Assembly (NCBI RefSeq): GCF_022539665.2
Contig: NC_081337.1
Coordinates: forward strand, 2,394,679 to 2,458,678
DNA length: 64,000 nucleotides
Source: Daphnia carinata
Lineage: Eukaryota; Arthropoda; Branchiopoda; Diplostraca; Daphniidae
Direction: 5' to 3'
Part shown: positions 49,561 to 64,000 of the stretch, piece by piece
Layout: each line of letters begins with the position of its first letter
Numbering within the stretch: the first letter of the stretch is position 1
Made by a program: the position numbers and the translations under genes
The notes under the pieces: generated by a model
Database searches by the model: none
Told to the model about the DNA's origin: nothing
The model's input: only the letters and a program-made list of their open reading frames with translations

Positions 49561-52500
49561 AATCAGTTTCAAGCCGGCCGAGGGCCAGTACGACTTGCTG
49601 GTGTCTGGTGCCACTTACGACCGCGACAATGGCCGTTTCGAGTGCCGCCTCAAGGAACAAGGGACGGGCATTGAATTGCACACGCAGTCGGTCGATTTGG
49701 TCGTCTTGGTGCCGCCATCCGCACCTCAAATCAACCCAGTCAGTCCGGTGGCCGTCGAAGGACAACCCACTGAATTGGTCTGTTCCAGCGCCGGTGGCAG
49801 TCCCGATCCCGTTCTGAGGTAATAAAACTTCATCCGATTCGATTTTTAATAGAATTTTAATTTTCAATGTTCAATCGGGCAGATGGTACCGGAAGGGCGA
49901 AGCGAACCCGTTGGAAGGGGCGATAACGAAACCGGGCGGAAGCCGGAGTGTGGCCACTCTGTCGACGCTCATCGTCCGACCGCAGAAGGAAGACGACGGG
50001 GCCGAGTACCGCTGCGTGGCCTGGAACAGAGCCATGGACGCCAACGACAAGAAGGAAGCCAACGTCGCTCTCACCGTCAACTGTAAATTTTCTTATTTCT
50101 TTTAACATTTTAAAATAGCCCAGCCTGAGGCCTTTTTTTTTTTAATTAGATGCTCCGAGAGTGCGTGTCAGTCCTAGCCCTTTAAGTGTCGAACGTGGCG
50201 GATCTGTTCAGATTCAATGCCAAGTCGATGCCAAACCGGCCGTCTACAGCGTCCGTTGGACTCGATCGGGCCGTTTCATCGCAACGAGTTTCAATCACAC
50301 GTTGCGATCCGTCAGCCTCGATGATGACGGCGTCTACGTTTGTTCGGCCGATAACGGACTAGGTCAAGTCGGCGAAGCTGAACTGCAATTGGACGTGCTC
50401 CATCCGCCCGTTGTGACCGTCAGCGAAGCTCGAAAGGAAGTGGAGATTGGCGCCAGCGTCGTCGTCCCCTGCAACGTCTCGGCCAAACCGGCGCCCATCT
50501 CCATCGAATGGATCAAAGAGGACGACGTTCAGTTCAGATCTAATGGTCCAGTTTTGAGACTCAATAGAATCTCTGCCAATGACAACGGCCGTTACGTTTG
50601 CCGGGCCACCAACATGGTCGGAGCGGCCGAGCGTTCGGGCAACGCCACTTTCCAGTTGCTGGTCAAACACGAGCCCGGAGCGGCGAAAATCTCGCCCGAA
50701 GAGCCCATCGCCGTCGACGAGGCCTCCATCACTCTGACTTGCGTTGCCGATCCGCCCGGCTGGCCCGCCCCTTCGTACCGTTGGTGGAAGGCCGGCGCCG
50801 AGGCGACCATTTTGTCTTCGACTTCGGAACTGACGATCCCCGTCGCCCGCCAGAACAGCGAAGGCACCTACTTCTGCCAGCCCAACAACGACCTGGGCAC
50901 TGGCAGTTCCAGCTACGTTCATTTGCGGGTCTTTCAACCGCCCCGCTTCATTGGCCAGTTGCCGCCCGTCTTGCAGAAAAAGGCACAAGACGCTGATTTT
51001 AATATGACGTGCTCTGCCCAGGGCAAACCGAAGCCATCCATCACGTGGCTCAAGGACGGAGTCGAGATGTTGCCCGGCAGCAGTTCGGGCGCGTACGAAT
51101 TAGTGACGGACGAGTCTGAAGGTCGAAACGCCATCTTTACCGTGCGTTCGACACTTCGTTTTCACGGATCCGAACGTCCGGCTTTGTCTCAACTAACGGC
51201 CGATGATCGGGGCGTCTACACTTGCGCTTTTGAAAATCAAATCCGACGCATCGAGTCCACCTTGACGCTGAAGATCGAACACGCGCCCATTTTGCTGGAT
51301 CACAGGCCCAAAGTGGCCTCTAATGTCGGATCGTCCAGCGTCCAGTTGCTGTGCCAAGTGCAGGCCTACCCTCGTCCCAATTTCGAATGGTCTTTACGAG
51401 ATGTGCCCATCATCGGCGGAGGAGGCGATAGCAAATACGAAATGAACGTGACGTCGATGACGGACAATGGTCACGACATCTACCAGGGCATTTTGCGAAT
51501 CAACGACGTCAAAGAGTCCGACTACGGCGATTACACTTGCAAAATGTGGAACGCTGAAGGTGAAAATGCGGCCGCTGTCCGTCTGCAAGCGACCAGCGCA
51601 CCGGAGAAACCGACCAATTTGAGAATTGTCCAGTCGGGTTATGATTCGCTGACGCTCGAATGGGACGAAGGATTTAATGGCGGATTTGAAAACACCATTT
51701 ACACTGTCCTCTATCGGGCCGTTTCATCGAGTAGCGATGCTGGCCAGCAACAAGAGGACGATTGCCAGTATGCAAATCCTTGCGTCATTCGAGGCCTGGA
51801 ACAGCTCCAGTCGTACACGATCCAAGTGCGCGCCGAGAACACGAAGGGCAAGAGCCCGTTGAGCAACGCCCTAACGGCCTCGACCATCGTCGATCTCTCG
51901 CGCATCCCCGAGCCCAAACAGGTGACGTTCGAGCCCAAAACCAAGACGATCTCGTTCAACGTCGACTCTCAGCTTCCCCTCATGGCCATGGTCGAGAGCC
52001 GCATCGAAGGTGATTGGGCCCTTTCGCAAAAGATTTCCGTCCGATCGCCAGTTAGCCGCGAAGTGCTGGACTTGGTGAAAGATGACGTCGATGATGTCCG
52101 CATTAAATTGTGTCTCGAAATGAACACGACGCTGTGCAGCGACGCCGTGGTGGCCGTGACGGGCGACCTCATTCAAGAGCCGACCAAAGCGCTGACTGAA
52201 TTGCCGGCCAAGTACATGGTGGCCATCATCGTGGCATGCGTCGTTGGGTCACTCGTCTTTGTCTTGTTCGCCATCTTTTATTGCTATCGTCGCAGACGCG
52301 CGCAAAAATTGAAGAAGCTGCTGGAAATGGAAAAGGCCCATTCGGCCCGTCCCACCATCGGCCAACAGCAACAACAACAACAGCAGCCTCCCCCGCCTTA
52401 TTATGCTGGACTGGAGAATAAAGGACGCGATCAGAGTTTAATGAATACGAGCCATAACAGTATGCTGGACGATGCGGCCAGCAAGAACGCCCTGTACGCT

Positions 52501-53241
52501 ACCCAAAATGGCTATGGATACGCTGTGGCCAGCGCTCAGAATAACGGACACGCCAACGGCGATTGTAATTCCCATTTTCATTTGATTTATTTTGATTTAT
52601 TTGGAATAATGGATTAACTTTAAATTTAGGGGTCAATATGGCGTACACGGAACACAGTTATTCCAATTCGAACAATGGCGGCTCGGTCAATTCTCAAGAC
52701 TCTTTGTGGCAATTGAAATTGGCTAGCCAAAATGGCGGCGTTGGCGGAGTGAACGGAGGCGATCATCAACTAGGCAATGGAACTCTGCCCGACCGCTCCT
52801 ATCACTACGATCCCATGACACACGGAGGCTACGGCGGTTTCGAGGACTACAGCCACTACCCGCCCAGCAACGGCGACGACTATCTCAACCAGCGCAACAA
52901 TTACGCCGTGGCCGGCAATGGCGATCCTTACGCCGCCGTCCACAAGAACGGCAAACGCATGGACCATCTTGGTATATTCTTTTCTTATTTATTTCACGTG
53001 AAAGATGACGCTGATTTTTCTTTAAAATTCGTTCTTAGAATCAACATATCACAACGTGAGTGGCTTGCCAGATCCCTACATGGAGGCCGAACCGGAGGAG
53101 ATGAAACAGCAACAGCAACAACAACAACAACAGCAAATGGCGCCACCTCAGCACCATCTCTCGTTTGATGAGTCGCTCGAGAGCGGCTATTCAACACCGA
53201 ATTCACGGAATCGCAGAGTCATCCGCGAGATCATCGTCTAG
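49561..53241 (+). CDS. ed: Echinoid / Friend-of-echinoid type adhesion receptor (5' partial)
   Basis: Exons 49561-49818, 49883-50082, 50150-52564, 52630-52971 and 53039-53241 join in phase to about 1,138 residues. The first exon enters mid-codon from an acceptor, so the signal peptide and the start of Ig1 lie upstream. Order: end of Ig1 (GRFECRL), six full Ig domains (each with Cys, Trp and YxC, such as DDGAEYRCVA, DDGVYVCSA, DNGRYVCRA, SEGTYFCQP, DRGVYTCAF, DYGDYTCKM), an FN3 domain (PTNLRIVQ to SPLSNAL), a weaker FN3-like domain, and a membrane span (VAIIVACVVGSLVFVLFAIF) followed by Arg/Lys. The cytoplasmic tail has Gln runs and ends REIIV. Drosophila Echinoid has seven Ig, FN3 and a C-terminal EIIV that binds the PDZ domains of Canoe and Bazooka at adherens junctions. 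Coding GC is well above the flanks. Confidence 0.88.
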
Positions 53242-54400: not shown

Positions 54401-57318
54401 TTATTCTTTTAAGTCTGATGCAGATTAATGCAAATAAAAACTGAAACGAAAGTGTTTGAGATGATTAAAAAATTAATATTGAATAAGATTCTTAGAAAAT
54501 TTGTTGATTGGTTAAGATTTGTTGTATGTGAATTCATACTTCGCGCGCTTAGAAAAGCCTAGCCCTCTGGCGTCTTTTTGATCAACTATCTTCGCACAAC
54601 GATGCCGAATCTAGATTCTCAATAAGGTTGTTCGAAATAAGAAGATCTGGCAATGCTCCAGCGACTTCCGTCCTTGCCAAGTGGAATGAGTCATTTGGAA
54701 ATGTGTAGAAATGGCGACTTGTTCTAGTTTTCTTAAATCTGAAATTCTTTACATTGAGGCGCGTGTACTGCTTATTAATTTTCGAAATTAGGATTTTAAT
54801 TTTGATAATTGTTATTCAAGTTGTGCTATTGTAGCATATAATCAGCCTAAAATTAGAGAATTACAAACATGTCAAAATTAAAGACAATTCCATTAGAAGG
54901 TCGAAGGTTTTGATGAGCACACGTGCGGGGAACCCTAAATCTAATTGCTGAAATGTGTAGTGCATTAAGCATAGAAAAGGATAGCAGTACAGTGCTAAAT
55001 TCCGTAAATCTTTTGGTTTGACAAACATGAAACCTCAATAAACGTAATCTACCACTTCAAAGATGAGAACAAGAGGTAATGTGGAAATAACTAAACTTGC
55101 TAATCAAAATTCCAGAAATTCTTTTTCTAGAAATCTTTAACAATAAATGGATTGACATCCAAATGTGATGTGCCTGTAGTAACTGCTTGGTGAATCTGAA
55201 CTGCCACAAAGCAACATTTAGTTCGAAGGGCTTTACAAGATATCTGCTCGCTTAAGGCAAACGTTAGCTGAAGTATTAGCTTGAGGATCATGTTTAGGTT
55301 AGAATAAGTAAAAGACGAATGAGGCTTAAGCTTTTAATCTAACTCTTGGAATTTTTTATGCTTCACCTTCTTTTGCCCTAACCTTTTTTTCTCCCTGTCT
55401 CCTGTAATTCAGTTTTAAAATCTTGAAGTAGTTTATCTTGTGTTGGATTTGAGTCCAACTGTCTAGAGGGAAATTTTCTTTCCGAGGATGATAATTTCAC
55501 CCTAGATTAGTCCAACACTTTCATTTTTCAAAAACTTTGTCATGTGCTTCTTCCAAGCAGTGCATGTTGCCTCAAAGTGGAGTGTGTAATCTAAGCAAAT
55601 GTATATTTGTTTTTACAGAGAAACGAGAAGAGTGATAACTATTTGATGGCTGTTTTCTATTGACCTGTTTCGCAGCACCGCCATACAGCTGATTACTGCA
55701 CAACACAGGGAATGTGCATAAGTGATGTAATCCATCCGGGTTTAAAGTAAGACATTCATTTGCTTTTTTTGAGAATGCCAATCTATATTCGTGTACTACA
55801 AGAGTTTATCTATTTCATTAAGCCCAATTTTCCATTCTCTTTTTTATTCCAAAAAAAGTTTTAGTGGTTAACCATGTCTTATTTCTTACTTTGATAACGA
55901 CAGTTTATACTTAACGCGAGTAATAATTTCCTCCTCTTACCTAGGGAAAGTGCTCAGTAAAACTAGAAATGGCTGAGGAGATCTATATGTAGGCAGATGC
56001 AGGGCGGAAAGTTTTGTTTTCACAACTGCGCCGATTTTTATATCCAGAACGCCTATCAAGTCGAAAATGGGACAAGTGAGTTATATGAAACACATATTGA
56101 TTAAATTCCAAACAAATCTAGAGAAACAGGCCATGGATATTGAATCTTTTATTAAAGATAATTGTTTAAAATTCTGCTGAAGGTAGAAATGCAGACCTTC
56201 GCGCATCCGTTGACATCACTTTAAACGTACAGGAAAAGTAAGGCAATAGTTAGTTAAATAACAAAAATTTTAATAACCTGTTAAAATTACTTAATATTTC
56301 GGGTGACTGTTTGCAGGTTTCTAGAAATTGGTAGGTTGCTTTTTCGGAGAAAATTACCGGACTTAAAGAGAAATGACCACATCCAAGTACTTTTTCTTTC
56401 ACATCATTCGGTATATTTTAATCCTAATATTTTCTATCGTTACAACCCACATTTAGATATCTGTCTCATTCCGCACACAGCTGTGAAATTCTTCAAACCA
56501 GTCGATGGTAAGGATAAAAGATAAAAGAAAGTAGCATTTAGAGCTGAAAAGCAGTCTTTTCTGAAATTTGTTTCATTTTCAATGAATTTAGTTGCAGTAC
56601 GAACGATGACGTACCCGCGCTGGATCAGAAATCCGGATATGTCAGCAGTATTTCCAGGACCGGATTAACATGGCGTTATATTAGGTATTTACATAAATTT
56701 GCAATAGGCATCGATTCTAAAAGGCTGACGTATCATGTTTTGCAAAAGTAGGTGAAAATGTTCATTTCTATACGAAGCAAGGTCCCTGTTTGCGTCAGGG
56801 CTTTTGATATAAGCCAGCGTACACTTCGTCGTGATTTGGTCGGCATGAAAAGGTTAGTTACCATATTCTGTTCATTTCGCATTATTGCGCGGTTGCATTT
56901 GATAGTAGAGCTGATAGGGGACTGTTTGACAGTCATTTTTTAATGGTTGCTTTTTTTTTAATCCTTAAGTCCGTGTGTTTTACGTCGTTGTGTACCAGCA
57001 GACATAAAATTGTATAGCGTGTAAGGTTTCTTTATGTATTGTAAATAATCAAGCCGCGTTCGAAGTTACAATTGAGGCCGGAGAATACTATCATGCACCT
57101 ATAGATTAGTATTATCTAATGGCCCACGTAAGTCATCTGTGGGGAATGCGTCATTTGAAATTCTATTTCCAGTATATGGTGTATTTGACTAACTTGTTTA
57201 TCAGGTTCATATAATAAGGTCCATAGCAAACAAGTGTGACTAAAATCTTTCATTGGATGTTGTCACATTTCGCTGGACCTAGGTTCACGGCTATAGATTT
57301 CAACATCGCTTTTGTTGA
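54401..57318. other. Intergenic DNA, right part is a duplicated flank
   Basis: No supported exon. From about 56290 to 57155 the sequence matches 63020-63850 in the same orientation and is listed separately. The remainder shows nothing recognisable. Confidence 0.6.
56290..57155. repeat. Left copy of a duplicated flank of the ankyrin-kinase locus
   Basis: Shared landmarks with the right copy: TTTGCAGGTTTC, TTTCTATCGTTACAACCCAC, CATTCCGCACACA/AATTCCGCACACA, AAACCAGTC, GGTAA-AATAAAAGATAA, TTGTAAATAATCAA and CACCTATGGA-type words, in the same order over about 850 bp with many substitutions. It ends about 160 bp past the stop of the ankyrin-kinase gene. Confidence 0.85.
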
Positions 57319-60300
57319 TTAACTACTGGCAGAGTCTGTCTTGTCAAATGGTTTTAGGATTTCCCCAAAATTGTTGTTTTTGTAAGTGTCGCGTAAGAGG
57401 ACTTGTGCGTCAAGTCGGTTTGATTTAATCTCAATTCCTAGTTGAATTAAAACTTTAACCGCGTCGAATAGATTTTCGCTGGAATTAAATCTGCACAGAA
57501 TATGGAGCGCATTCCATCCGTTTTTTTCCTTTGCATGTCTATCAATTCCAAGATGGACAAGCAGTTTGATGGCTTCAATTAAATTTGTGGATGAATTTTT
57601 TGCGCACAGGACATGGAGTGCGTTCAATCCGCGGTCATCCTTTGCGTTCAGGTCGATTCCGAGTTGGATTAACTTTTCGATTCCATCAGTTAAATTTGTG
57701 GATGAATTTGTTGCGCACAGGACATGGAGTGCGTTTGCTCCGTTGTCGGTCTTTGCGTTTACGTCGATTCCGAGTTGGATTAGCTTTTCGATTCCATCAA
57801 TTAAATTTGATGAATTGTAAGCACAGAGGAGATGGAGGGCGTTTGCTCCGAATTTACCGCTCTTTGCTTTCACGTCAGTTCCGAGTTGGATTAATTTTTC
57901 GATTTGGTCCATTAAATTTGAACTTGAATTGAATGCACACAAAGTGTGGAGTACGTTCATGCCGTTGTTGTCTTTTGCGTTTCCATCCATTCCACTTTTG
58001 ATTAAGAACTCGATTGCATCTGTTAAATAAGGACTGAAATTGTATGTGCACAAAACGTGTAATGCGCTCAGTCCTTCGTTGCTCTTTGCGTTTGTGTTGA
58101 TTCCGCGTTTTATCAACAACTCAAGTTCCTTTATTAAGTTTAAGTTGTTTGTACACACCCAATGTAGAGCATTCCATCCAAGCTAAATAAAGAAAATAAT
58201 TAGCGTTAAAGCCGGTTAAATTATTTTGTCGATTAATGCACGTTGATAGTTTTTTTAATTTGCACAAGATTTTTACTTTCGTTTGAATGATTTGAAGTTC
58301 AGTAACGACATCTCCTGATGCGATCCTCTCAGTAGGCTTAGTGGTCAACATTTTTGTTAACAAACTACGTGCCCAGTGTAAATTATGAATCTCTACAATG
58401 AAAACATATCAAAGGATTGAATATTAGTGAATATATGTTTGCGAAAATTACCGTCCTTAAAGAGAAACTTACTCTCCATATTAATCGGTTTATTCTGTTT
58501 GATGTTTGTCATAACTTCTTCGTCTGAACCGTAGAGATGTATTCCATTCAAGAGAATGTAACCGAAGACGAGGCCCTCAGCAAAGACATCGCTTTTAACT
58601 GTACCCCGTTTTCCTTCCAGGGTATTGTCTAAGAGAATTTCGTACAGCTCAGGAGCATACCAATATTCAGTTCCTCTGAATCCACTCATTGCGAATGTTC
58701 CGCGTTTGTTCACTGGTCGGCAAGATCCAAAATCACCCCACTTCATCGTTGCATGTTCGCCTTGGTCAGTCATTTTCACAGAAATCAGAATGTTTTCCGG
58801 TTTAATATCTCGGTGAGTTAAATTCCGCGAATGGATATAGGCAAGGCCTGAAGCTAAATGGAGAAACATTTCGATAGGGAGTGGTATAGGTCCTTCATAT
58901 TTCTTGTGGTCGTCCGATTTTGAAAATAGCTGATCCAGGGCTGTGTTGCATAGTTCCAAAATTAAATACCTGAAAAACCAGTTAATATACAATATTTGTT
59001 ACTGGTTCAAAGTGACGTTTCCAAAATGTTACTTGAAGGTATCATCGATTTCGAAGTGAAGGAGTTTGACAACATTTGGATGGTCTAATTCTAGAAGAGC
59101 TGTTAGCTCGTTGTCGACTGGGTTGACTTGTTCACCAATCAGCTGAATCCGTTTGACTGCAACCTTTCGGTTTTTAAATTCACCCCGAAATACTAACCCG
59201 GATGCACCGTTTCTTATAAAATCCTTTATGTAGTACTGCATTTTTTCGACGTGTTCATTTACGGCATTATTTGAAAGAAGGTCCGGCTTGTAAAATAGTT
59301 TTATGATTTCCTCCAAGTTGTCCTTTTGGTAATAGTCGCGTAAGAGAACCTGCGCGTCATAACCGTTGGATTTAATCTCAATTCCCTGTTCAATTAAAAA
59401 TTTGACCGCGACGCGTAGGTATTCATTGGAATTAAATCTGCACAGGAAATGGAGCGCATTCCATCCATCTTGGTCCTTTGCATGGATATCAATTCCCAGG
59501 TGGATCAACAGTTTGATGGCTTCAATCAAATGTGGGCCTAAATTTTCCTTGCAGAGAGTATGGAGTGCGTTTAATCCGTCGTAATTCTTTGCTTTCACGT
59601 CGATTCCGAGTTGGATTAATTTTTCCATTGCGCCAGTTAAATTTGTGGATGAGTTACTTGCGCACAGAATATGGAGTGCGTTATATCCCGTGTTGTCTGT
59701 TGCTTTCACATCAATTCCTGCTTGATGTAAACGTTCGATTGCGCTAATTAAATGTTGGGATGAATTTTTCGCACATAGGTAATGGAGTGCGTTAAATCCG
59801 TTGTCGCTCTTAACGTTCATGTCGATTCCCAGTTTGATCAACTTGTCGATAGCGTCTATTAACTTTGCGCTTGAATTGCTTGCACACAAAGCGTGGAGTA
59901 CGTTATTGCCGTTTTTATCTTTAGCGTTGCCATCCATTCCGATTTGGATTAAGAATTCGATTGCATCAGTTAAATAGGGGCTTGAATTTTTCGCACACAA
60001 ATAATGGAGTGCGTTTTGTCCGTCGTTGTCTGTTGTTTCCACATCGACTCCTGATTGAAGTAAACGTGTGATTGCGCCAATCAAATTTGAGGATGAATTG
60101 TTTGTGCAAAGGTAATGGATTGCGTTGGATCCGCTGTCGCTCTTTGCATTCACGTCGATTCCGTTTTTAATCAACTTTTCGATTGCGTCTGATAACTTTG
60201 CGCTTGAATTGCTTCTGCAGAGGAAATGGAGTGCGTTTAATCTGCTGCCGTCACTCTTTGCGTTCACGTCGGTTCCGAGTTGAATTAACTTATCGATTGC

Positions 60301-62207
60301 GTCTATTAACTTAGAGCTTGAATTGTTTGCGCATAAAGTGTGGAGTATGTTTAAGCCGTTTTTATCTTTTGCGTTCCCATCCATTCCGATTTGGATTAAG
60401 AATTCGATTGCGTCACTTAAATAGAAGCTTGAATTTTTCGCACACAAGTAATGGAGTGCGTTTTGTCCGACGTTGTCTGTTGTATTCACATCTAGTCCAC
60501 TATTAAGTAAACTGGTGATTGCGCCAATGAAATGTGAGCTTAAATTGTTTGTGCAGAGAGCATGTAGTACGTTAAATCCATCCTTGTCCTTGGCGTTCAC
60601 GTCGATTCCGCGTTCGATTAAAACATGGATTGCGGTAACTAAATATGAGCTTGAATTTTTTGCACACAAGGCGTGGAGTGCATTTAATCCGCTGGTGCTC
60701 TTTGCGTTGACGTTGACTCTTAGTTGGATTAACTTTCCGATTGCGTCTATTAACTGTGAGCTTGAATTGTATGCACACAAAGTGTGGAGTACGTTATTGC
60801 CGTTTTTATCTTTTGCATTCACATCCATTCCCATTTTGACTAAGAATTCGATTGCATCAGTTAAATCAGGACTGGAATTGTATGTGCACAAAACGTGTAA
60901 TGCGCTCAGTCCTTGGTTGTCAGTTGCATTGGTATCGATTCCGAGTTTTATCAACAAATCGATTGCTTCAAGTAAGTTTGAGTTTGAGTTAATTGCACAT
61001 ACCAAATGTAGAGCATTCCATCCATTTTCGTCCTTTGATGTCACATCGATACTGCGCTGACCTAAAGAATTGATCGTTTCGCAAAATTTGAATTTTGAAC
61101 TCGTGCCAGCCAACAGTTGAAGCAATTTGTTTTCTACATCGGCAAGCTAAATAAAGCGAAAATTAGTTTTAAAGCACATTAAATAATTTTGACGATTCAA
61201 GCACGGTGATAGATTTTTCAATTTGAGCAAAATGTTTACTTTCGTTTGAATAGAATGAAGTCCAGTAACGATATCTCCTGAAGCGATTCTATCAGCAGGT
61301 TTAGTGGTCAACATTTTTGTTAACAAACTACGTGTCCAATGGAAACTATGAATTTCTAAAATGAAACATATTAAATGGTTTAACATTAGTGAGTATGTGT
61401 TTGCGACATTGGCCGTACGTAATTAGAAACTTACTATCCATATTAATCGGTTTATTCTGTTTGATGTTTGTCATAACTTCTTCGTCTGAACCGTAGAGAT
61501 GTATTCCATTCAATAGAATGTAACCGAAGACGAGCCCTTCTGCGAAGACATCGCTATTGACTGTTCCACGTTTTCTGTCCAAAACATTGTTATCCAGAAT
61601 TTCGTACAACTCGGGCGCAAACCAATATCGAGTGCCTTTGATTCCACTCATTGTGTATGTTCCTCGTTCATTCACGGGTCGGCACAATCCAAAATCACCC
61701 CACTTCATCCTTGCCTGTTTGCCTTGGTCAGTCATTTTGACAGAAATTAGAATGTTTGCCGGTTTTATATCTCGGTGAGTAAAATCGCGCGAATGGATAT
61801 AGGCAAGGCCTGCAGCTAAGTGAAGGAACATTTCGATAGGGAGTGGTATAGGTCCTTTGTAATTCTTTGGATCGTTTGGTTTTAAGAACAGCTTATCCAA
61901 TGATGCGTCGCAAAATTCCAAAACAAAATATCTGAAAGAGCAATAACTGTACAGGGTCTGTTTCTGATTAAAAATGACGTTTAAGAAAAAAAAAATCTTA
62001 CTTGAAATTGTCATCGCTTTCGAAATGAAGCAGTTTGACAACATTCGGATGGTCTAATTCTTGAAGAGCTTTAAGCTCGTTGTCTGGGCTGACTTGTTCA
62101 CCAATCTTCTGAATCCGTTTGATTGCAACTTTTTGGCCTTTGAATGTACCAAGAAACACGAAACCGTATCCACCCCTTCCTAAAATATTCGTCGTGTCGT
62201 ACTGCAT
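57319..62207 (-). CDS. Double ankyrin-repeat protein kinase, IRE1/RNase L-like kinase domains, no KEN domain
   Basis: Seven exons join in phase: 62002-62207, 61435-61931, 61240-61355, 59033-61146, 58473-58969, 58277-58392 and 57319-58182 (4,410 nt, 1,469 residues). Order: kinase 1, 15 ankyrin repeats of 37 residues, kinase 2, 7 ankyrin repeats. Kinase 1 has GRGGYG, VAIKRIQ, HRDIKPANILIS, GDFGLCRP and WFAPELYE, all catalytic residues present. Kinase 2 has VAVKRIQ, HRDIKPENILIS, GDFGSCRP and WYAPELYE but a weak glycine loop (RNGASG). The HRDIKPxNILIS and DFGLC motifs and the unusual C-lobe resemble IRE1 and RNase L; the KEN ribonuclease domain that follows in those proteins is absent. Exon lengths 497 and 116 recur exactly in both halves, proving duplication. 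Start is ATG 62205-62207, with an in-frame stop 16 codons upstream. Alternative: two genes, the second starting at the ATG at 59239-59241. Substrate unknown. Confidence 0.82.
59241..61080 (-). repeat. Coding ankyrin repeat array with higher-order period
   Basis: Fifteen direct repeats of 111 bp code for the 37-residue unit NALHxLCxxNSSxxLxxAIE followed by LIxxGIDVNAKDxxG. Repeats 5, 6 and 7 resemble 9, 10 and 11 more than their neighbours (for example AIEFLIQIGMDGNAK in both 6 and 10), giving a second period of four repeats, about 444 bp. The reverse strand shows long open frames through it that are shadows. Confidence 0.85.
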
Positions 62208-64000
62208 TTTACTGACGTCTTTATTTGCGACAGTATTTGATGCGACAACGTTTTAACTCACTCATTGAGTTGCACTTGAATACTAGCGAAACAGGGACGT
62301 GTGCAAGTTGCTAGGTTAGAATTTGATATTAGATAATCAAAACTGAAATCGCTGTGAGGTTATCAGTTCGCTTATTTGTTGAGCATATCACAAGTTGAAA
62401 ACCGTGGGAAACTATTGCATCCGTCTACCTGATTATCTACTTGACATATCCGTGAAGTCGTTTCAAATCTTTACGTTGAAGTTTCGCCCAATGATTTTCA
62501 TGACTAAGAAAGCTATTTACATGTTTTCAGAACGAAATGTTCTCCCTTGCTTCAACTGTAATTTTCAACTGATTCAAGTTTCTACATGACTACATGTATC
62601 ATCGTGCATCCTGGCTTCAATTTGCATGTAGCACCATTAAAAAGAGGAACAATTTTAGTAAATTTAATTTGCTTGTTGCGTTTTATTCAAACTAATGTAC
62701 TACGTACTTTTATTAATCAAAGATGTAGAACGTCTTTTCCAGTTATGAAGAAGAATACGCGAATCTGCTGTGTAACGACAGTCAATATTATAAGCGCAGA
62801 GCTTTTTTCACATGAACATTTTTAAGAATAAAATGTCAAAACGGATGTTTGATTCCCGCGAACGAGGACGAATGGTGGCATATTTGCTGTGAGTGCCTCC
62901 AACCAAGCCATGTATAGTGGGGCACTGAAGGCTCCTTTTCGAGTTACGTGTAAGGTCCTTATTTAATTAATTAAAAATTTCTTAGTATTATTTTATTGCC
63001 GTTACCGTTTTATTGCCTTTTTTTGCAGGTTTCCAGAGAGTGCTATGTTTACCTTTTCGAAGAAAATTCCCGGACAGAGAAATGTTACATAACCAAAGGA
63101 AGTACTCTTTCTTTCACGTCATTCTTTGTATTTTAGTCTAAATATTTTCTATCGTTACAACCCACATTTGGATATTTGTCAAATTCCGCACACACCTGTG
63201 AATTTCTACCAAACCAGTCAATGGTAAGAATAAAAGATAAGAGAAAGCAGCTTATGAGCAGTCTGGTCCAAAATTTGTTTCATGTCCGATGAATTCACCT
63301 GTGGTACGAACGATGACGTAACGACGCTGGAATCGGAATACGGATGTGACATCAGCATTGCCTGTTTGGATTAACATGGCGATATGTCAGGTATTTACAT
63401 AAATTCTAAATAGTTATCGTCTCTTAAAGGTTGACGTATCATTTTCTGCAGAAGCAGGTGGAAATGTTAAATTTCTATCCGAAGCGGATCCCTGTTTTTT
63501 GCTGCAGGACTTGTGATATAAACCAGCGGTACGCATCGCCGCGATTGGATCGAAATGATAAGGTTAGTAACCATATTGTGCTAAGTCATATTGTTAGGCG
63601 GTTTCATTTGATAGTAGTCCTGATTAGGGAACTGTTTGAAAGTCAATTTTTAAAGGTTGCTTTCTTATCCTAAAACCCCTCTGTTTTCCGTCGTTGTGCG
63701 CCAGAAAACGTTAAATGTTGTGGCGTGTTGGGATCTTTATCTATTGTAAATAATCAAACCGCGTCCGTAGTTACCTTGAGGTTAGAGAATGCTTCGAGCA
63801 CCTATGGACCAGCGTTATCTGATGGCCTAAGTAAATGTGTCCATTTGATGCAGCTGCGGCTTTCCACACCAAGTAAACGTTTCTATGCGAGGCCAAATCA
63901 TGTTTGGCCGTTTATTTTTGCCACATCAATGAGTTAGGAAAATGAATTAGAAAAGTAAAATGCATTACCTGCGAGTTTACTTCCATAACGGTTTTTCACA
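62208..64000. other. 5' flank of the ankyrin-kinase locus and duplicated flank
   Basis: No supported exon. The promoter of the ankyrin-kinase gene should lie in the first few hundred bases, but no TATA box is clear. The right part repeats the left flank. Confidence 0.6.
63020..63850. repeat. Right copy of the duplicated flank
   Basis: Colinear with 56290-57155. In the left copy the order is flank, about 160 bp, then the 3' end of a minus-strand ankyrin-kinase gene; here the corresponding point would fall at about 64,010, just outside the window. Confidence 0.85.

Follow-up and report, generated by a model that had tools for sequence, protein, structure and literature searches.

Is a Daphnia carinata gene that reads kinase, ankyrin repeats, kinase, ankyrin repeats a single gene, and if so, how did two kinase units come to share one frame? 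The gene lies on the minus strand of the window, the whole stretch of 64,000 nucleotides (nt) that was analysed (G000:C7:2394679-2458678, on contig C7 of a 108 Mb genome). Our verdict from the sequence is that it appears to be a real fusion, not unique in its domain order, and a young member of a recurrent kind. Most probably two neighbouring kinase-ankyrin (kinase-ANK) genes of a tandem array merged to give a two-headed kinase, a reading to which we assign a probability of roughly 0.68.

The splice model has seven exons (62207-57319, minus strand) and a coding sequence of 4410 nt for 1469 residues, in which the sole stop is the terminal one. All six introns are GT-AG and 63-94 nt long, and the order kinase-ANK-kinase-ANK (K-A-K-A) is read in one uninterrupted frame. 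The in-frame fusion of two kinase-ANK units proposed in an earlier sequence-only reading is thus borne out. The same applies to its statement that the second kinase follows the first ankyrin block in one open exon with no spacer, as exon 4 is open across the first ankyrin block (ANK1), a linker and the start of kinase 2. The parts of the gene and its 5' flank are, in window coordinates:

62207-62002, minus strand: exon 1, 206 nt, N-lobe of kinase 1, ATG at 62207 (modelled, with PF00069 matched over the joined kinase)
61931-61435, minus strand: exon 2, 497 nt, kinase 1 with HRDIKPAN and DFG
61355-61240, minus strand: exon 3, 116 nt, end of kinase 1
61146-59033, minus strand: exon 4 as a whole, ANK1, tail, linker and start of kinase 2, open throughout
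61146-59359, minus strand: first part of exon 4, ANK1 with 15 repeat motifs at 37-38 residue spacing and the type I start LADVENK
59358-59275, minus strand: ANK1 tail in exon 4, DAQVLLRDYYQKDNLEEIIKLFYKPDLL, matching the tail that stops in unfused units
59274-59242, minus strand: linker in exon 4, SNNAVNEHVEK, resembling the 5' leader directly before the ATG of solo units
59241-59033, minus strand: last 209 nt of exon 4, start of kinase 2, whose Met (residue 909) is at the position of the solo start codon
58969-58473, minus strand: exon 5, 497 nt, kinase 2 with HRDIKPEN and DFG
58392-58277, minus strand: exon 6, 116 nt, end of kinase 2
58182-57319, minus strand: exon 7, second ankyrin block (ANK2) with 7 repeat motifs, the type II start LGWNALHW, and the stop
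62208-62978, minus strand: 5' flank, probably the promoter region, with 92% identity to the corresponding flank of solo unit 2554707

In the protein, kinase 1 spans residues 1-273, ANK1 274-869, tail and linker 870-908, kinase 2 909-1182 and ANK2 1183-1469. Both kinases match PF00069 in Pfam (E 1.5e-37 for kinase 1 and 1.9e-35 for kinase 2), and both ankyrin blocks match ankyrin families. The intron calls are supported because the splice model equals a protein record of the same array: P0122 (D. carinata, 489 aa) is solo unit 2497268, and its first 273 residues are those of the model. Nor is the open frame due to chance, since about 21.5 stops would be expected in it at 10% neutral divergence (a rough figure that assumes an age for the fusion) and none is seen inside; 4.9% of single changes in the coding sequence create a stop. 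Single-sequence structure prediction for exon 4 gave a predicted local distance difference test score (pLDDT) of 71.4 for the best of five models and 39.6-44.9 for the other four. The ankyrin helices of the best model are good, while residues 591-704 (tail, linker and N-lobe) have a pLDDT below 50. The protein has no transmembrane-like segment, the highest 19-residue hydropathy mean being 1.37.

With tblastn, 21 kinase-ANK units were located on C7, all on the minus strand and in two clusters (14 units at 2.452-2.555 Mb and 7 units at 4.796-4.852 Mb). An additional kinase start at 4803002 is interrupted by a 100 N gap. Exon 1 is 206-212 nt long where intact and is followed by exons of 497 or 494 nt and 116 nt and then by a long ANK exon, a layout that the window gene fits. 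The sequence-only reading had given the shared exons of 497 and 116 nt and the equal intron phases as a mark of the fused pair. The lengths and the equal phases are correct, but as a mark of the pair the lengths fail, as the 497-or-494 and 116 nt exons occur in 21 of 21 units modelled. Two types of ANK start could be told apart: type I in 10 units (LADAENK, LADEEKK, LAADEKK, LVDEEAK, LADVENK) and type II in 11 (LGWNALHW and near forms, including unit 2465973, which the script left untyped and which was tallied by eye from its LGWSALHW). The ANK block ends in a stop in 19 of the 21 units and reads through into a kinase in two, the window gene and a second locus that we call copy 2. The seven unfused pairs of a type I and a type II neighbour have spacers of 2367, 2450, 2549, 2566, 2214, 5688 and 17796 nt, and the 5688 nt spacer contains the cut unit 4803002. 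Strict alternation of the two types was considered and rejected, as the first cluster holds one I-I and one II-II neighbour pair.

Other features of the array may be noted here. The shortest open ANK exon has about 650 nt (unit 2497268, from P0122) and the longest 5526 nt (G000:C7:4836452-4830927). These exons are built of repeats some 111 nt long, many of them nearly alike, and units therefore differ widely in their ankyrin number. The flanks of the fused gene (window 54822-57318 and 62208-64000) recur across the two clusters, with roughly 73-96% of positions identical, and would thereby facilitate unequal exchange. At G000:C7:4854553 (L027) a unit 5' flank, 93% identical to that of the window over 2463 nt, abuts sequence like the 3' flank of the units, and this place looks as if one entire unit had been deleted. 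A polyadenylation hexamer is found within 400 nt of 15 of 16 unit ends, yet five also lie inside exon 4.

How the two units were joined can be read from both sides of the junction. The linker in front of kinase 2 is of the kind that forms the leader of other units, for example SNTVANKDVSK-M, which precedes kinase 1 of the fused gene, and the tail before each linker matches tails that end in a stop elsewhere in the array. At the outer ends, the 5' flank of kinase 1 matches its counterpart at unit 2554707 with 92-93% identity, and the 3' flank of the fused gene matches its counterpart at unit 2549964 with 93%; these two units adjoin each other across the 2367 nt spacer. At the inner end, the sequence 5' of kinase 2 reaches at most 47% identity (-700 to -70) or 49% (-330 to -45) with the flanks of solo units, against 77-85% with copy 2. 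The spacer is missing in the fused gene, and five of the seven unfused I-II neighbours have one of 2214-2566 nt. In intron 2 and in the stretch of exon 3 and intron 3, each half is closest to different solo units.

It therefore seems that two adjacent units, a type I followed by a type II, merged through loss of the spacer. We prefer such a merger of neighbours because the halves differ in type, because their closest kin differ in most segments and because the linker resembles a 5' leader; it appears to fit better than an intragenic duplication, which is disfavoured. The sequence-only reading had offered loss of a stop or an intragenic tandem duplication, and the first survives in the form of a merger between neighbours. 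It had also aligned the end of the second block with the point where the first reads on. This alignment is right, but the stop is 16 residues past DAQVLLRDTYKNNN, the block ending in FGEILKPFDKTDSASS and then the stop.

Copy 2 is a second in-frame kinase-ANK-kinase junction, with kinases at 2491235 and 2488949, 34 kb from the window gene. As in the window gene, a type I unit precedes a type II unit. Its linker (SNTAANENVGK-M) is 80% identical to that of the window (SNNAVNEHVEK-M), whereas the leaders of solo units reach at most 66% with the window linker and 69% with that of copy 2. Both joined tails contain a proline (KPDL, EPGL) at a position that is T or L in the other tails shown. In the kinase tree, the second kinases of the two loci do not group as sisters. 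In the simplest reading, the two junctions go back to one merger, followed by copying or gene conversion.

Several observations weigh against a merger that yielded a working two-headed kinase. Exon 2 of kinase 1 is nearest to type II units (92%), and the start of ANK1 is marginally nearest to a type II unit (82.6% vs 82.0%), an affinity which implies that gene conversion has mixed the history. The only joined relative in the array, copy 2, is a pseudogene, with a frameshift in ANK1 near 2489878, HRGVRPEE in place of HRDIKPEN in kinase 2, and a stop in exon 3 of kinase 2. Kinase 2 of the window gene has substitutions at sites that are normally conserved: Arg replaces the initial Gly of the Gly-loop, DFG is followed by Ser, and the activation-loop Thr has become Ala. 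It also sits on a long branch (0.19) in the kinase tree. Across the junction, the ratio of nonsynonymous to synonymous divergence (dN/dS) between the window gene and copy 2 is 0.90. Neither the 120 proteins listed at 808-2570 aa nor the 120 listed at 310-987 aa include the fused gene, and among the latter only two proteins come from contig C7. Finally, the tethering of the heads as a dimer and the binding of a ligand, discussed below, are what we infer.

Part of this speaks for a rival reading in which the locus, joined incidentally through unequal exchange in an array with rapid turnover, has little expression and no function and is heading for decay. This reading would account for the frameshift, lost HRD Asp and stop in a copy with a similar linker, for the odd residues and long branch of kinase 2, and for the few C7 proteins and the missing fused-gene record. 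It sits poorly with the 4410 nt that lack any inner stop where the rough estimate is about 21.5, and with the catalytic triads, as both window heads keep the Lys, the HRD Asp and the DFG Asp. The ANK1 end of the window gene also evolves much like unfused ends: its median dN/dS is 0.48 (14 pairs, one of them with copy 2), compared with 0.73 for copy 2 and 0.40 for the 71 non-fused pairs, in a comparison that used 13 of the 19 unfused ANK ends. The value for copy 2 suggests that much of the 0.90 at the junction stems from the decay of copy 2. Selection on the junction was therefore not judged from window and copy 2, a pair dropped as uninformative since copy 2 is decayed. For the kinase pair dN/dS is 0.34, with family medians of 0.30-0.42 over 19 units; units 4843009 and 4823467, in which exon 1 is frameshifted or was not found, were dropped here and kept in the kinase tree without exon 1. 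We regard decay as unlikely, although of the rivals it survives best.

That the locus holds two genes, with kinase 2-ANK2 read from its own start in exon 4 and ANK1 ended by early polyadenylation, is improbable. The solo start codon is retained at 59241 and the five hexamers in exon 4 could serve such an ending, but the solo-type 5' flank is missing before kinase 2 and no stop closes ANK1. An intragenic tandem duplication of one unit has slightly poorer prospects still. WIN_K1 and WIN_K2, the two window kinases, are weakly sister in the kinase tree (52/23), a grouping neither shown nor rejected, and for exon 1 of kinase 2 the best match is that of kinase 1 (81.3%), narrowly ahead of copy 2 (80.3%) and others. 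Yet ANK1 has a type I start and ANK2 a type II start, the kin of intron 2 and of exon 3-intron 3 differ per half, dS is 0.26 from kinase 1 to unit 2554707 as against 0.38 to kinase 2, and the linker is like a 5' leader. An assembly error joining two units is very improbable: the array is repetitive and has assembly gaps (100 N at 2443226 and at 4802543), but the fused gene itself contains no gap, and copy 2 carries a similar linker at an in-frame junction in the same position.

If the merger of neighbours is accepted, the next point is whether it stands alone. The sequence-only reading knew of no named protein with this order and asked for a search in other Daphnia. A search for relatives gave 1531 matches, of which the best 120 were listed and the first 65 classed by kinase domains and ankyrin motifs. 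Among these 65 the order is in fact common, with 29 K-A-K-A proteins and one K-A-K-A-K; the remainder are 9 K-A, 3 K-K-A, 1 K-A-K-K, 1 A-K-A, 15 K-K, 2 K-K-K-K, 3 K and 1 A. The 30 proteins with the K-A-K-A or K-A-K-A-K order come from D. magna (22), D. carinata (4) and D. sinensis (4), with the proviso that genes may have entered this count twice, since the D. magna records stem from more than one annotation and two of them are isoforms of a single gene. Their database names do not state the domain order, and among the open-licence PubMed Central (PMC) papers listed, no title or abstract start deals with it. Other double and fourfold kinase orders also occur in Daphnia (P0043, P0048 and the 15 K-K proteins), and 12 of these K-K proteins also have PF00400 (WD40). 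Duplicated heads may thus be widespread among kinases of this family.

The D. carinata protein P0015 (source name 'death-associated protein kinase 1-like') has the K-A-K-A order. At its locus (C6:9515901-9516491) ANK1, linker and the start of kinase 2 lie in one open exon, in exact agreement with the protein sequence; elsewhere, the breaks in the alignment are consistent with the seven-exon layout of the window gene. Proteins of this type thus share with the window gene the domain order, a junction within one exon and IRE1-like kinases. They differ in belonging to another branch of the kinase tree, in a linker of the GWxxxYYLxNKDKKEMKIWFDR type and in a kinase 1 triad that is mostly not intact; in those measured, ANK1 between the heads has 134-184 residues, against 635 in the window gene. 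Among eight further D. carinata loci, a related junction lies in a stop-free alignment at L031, L032, L038, L040 (C8) and in alignments with 1 and 6 stops at L033 and L037, which extend into introns; none was found at L035 and L039. Among the matches listed, at least 18 rows span a P0015-type junction, and at least 10 of them are stop-free.

The kinase tree comprised 61 kinase domains and was built with 16 of the 65 classed proteins, the first 290 residues of 8 more, and one IRE1. The C7 units group in a single clade of 22 rows (21 units and P0122; support 100/99). Heads of the older K-A-K-A proteins make up two further clades, one of first kinases (9 rows, 100/100) and one of second kinases (12 rows, 93/84, not starred). 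Both contain members from D. magna, D. carinata and D. sinensis, so this merger probably predates these species. P0009_K1, P0011_K1 and both heads of P0018 fall outside the two old clades. Both heads of P0003 (D. carinata LOC130691331) are placed in another clade (6 rows, 100/99) together with P0005 and P0006 (both K-A), P0129 and P0130. P0003 resembles the window gene in its K-A-K-A order and in having both triads, but besides its separate clade it has a linker that resembles the N-terminus of its own first unit (STIPVNVDGIQF). This linker and that of P0018 (EILKLLDEMKIKFDQRD) are both unlike that of the window. The approximately unbiased (AU) tests covered two combinations and rejected both, namely a single origin of the window pair and the P0003 pair (p 1.8e-40) and a shared origin of WIN_K1 with the nine old kinase-1 rows (p 3.5e-40). 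Because the AU tests reject a common origin and the linkers differ, we conclude that there were probably separate mergers, at least three and perhaps four.

The two heads have fared differently in the database proteins. The kinase 1 triad is intact in 6 and the kinase 2 triad in 26 of the 30 K-A-K-A and K-A-K-A-K proteins, although many of these are close paralogues and all are gene predictions, so they are not 30 independent events. With the window pair and copy 2 included, the totals are 8 of 32 for kinase 1 and 27 of 32 for kinase 2; ten kinase-1 rows are gapped at the Lys column, where the domain piece starts late, and all ten also lack the DFG Asp. The older double-headed form thus appears to be mostly pseudokinase-ANK-kinase-ANK. 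Broken triads are found in solo forms too (2 of 5 checked). In the array, four solo units (2554707, 2549964, 2517444 and 4808768) have GFG in place of DFG, and likely pseudokinases therefore arise without fusion as well.

The kinases themselves are closest to IRE1, which takes the top 16 places both among the 17 PDB matches of kinase 2 with E <= 1e-20 and among the 60 shown for kinase 1. A search for the KEN RNase domain (PF06479) gave no match in kinase 1, kinase 2 or ANK2 with a cut-off of E 10, or in exon 4 with a cut-off of E 0.001. The gene model has no ankyrins ahead of kinase 1, though an upstream exon could have been missed. RNase L has N-terminal ankyrins that bind 2-5A, and IRE1 a lumenal sensor and a membrane anchor. 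The window gene is like both in its IRE1-type kinase domain and unlike them in having no detected KEN, no membrane-like segment and ankyrins that come after the kinase. Kinase-KEN proteins with ankyrin repeats are known according to parts of PMC3710099, and the Daphnia expansion of the HEPN family treated there is Swt1-type and could be set aside as another family than the C7 array. The words 'kinase', 'ankyrin' and 'IRE1' are absent from the main text of PMC12102780.

A possible mode of action can be outlined. The promoter of kinase 1 would drive the fused gene, and the transcript would yield a single soluble protein of 1469 residues. Two IRE1-type heads held together by ANK1 would be a ready-made pair, and they might phosphorylate each other when the ankyrin solenoids bind ligand. 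We propose pre-paired heads because IRE1-type kinases work in pairs; PMC4536996 describes IRE1 autophosphorylation as coupled to a back-to-back dimer. As no KEN was found, the output would be phosphorylation and not RNA cleavage. Since kinase 1 is mostly a pseudokinase in the older relatives, the likely fate would be a regulatory first head and a catalytic second one.

Plant tandem kinase proteins, which belong to other kinase families than the window gene, offer an analogy in that two kinase heads share one chain, while their extra domains are others. As described in parts of PMC11153570, such proteins (Yr15, Pm57 and others) carry two heads per chain by duplication or fusion, and several consist of a kinase plus a pseudokinase. 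A role in immunity would be a guess, prompted by rapid turnover and variable ankyrin numbers, with RNase L and the plant tandem kinases as analogues. More broadly, and tentatively, with the odds somewhat against it, Daphnia may repeatedly merge IRE1-like array neighbours into two-headed receptors whose first head becomes a pseudokinase regulator of the second, parallel to plant tandem kinases and JAK and perhaps used in immunity; the window gene would then be a recent example whose first head has yet to be lost.

If the merger is as we read it, one array would show the steps from single to double-headed kinases, with solo units, an in-frame merger and a decayed relative side by side, and a 5' leader would have been turned into a linker by the in-frame merger. 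The genus would also hold older double-headed forms in which the first head is mostly dead, so that the origin of kinase-pseudokinase proteins becomes testable in one genus with good laboratory species. The array family is large, and annotation scatters its members under IRE1-like or death-associated protein kinase names.

Beside the array, the window holds one further open frame:

50146-52617, plus strand: 823 aa, five Ig stretches, one fn3 and a hydrophobic segment near residue 695

Its product looks like a cell-adhesion-type protein.

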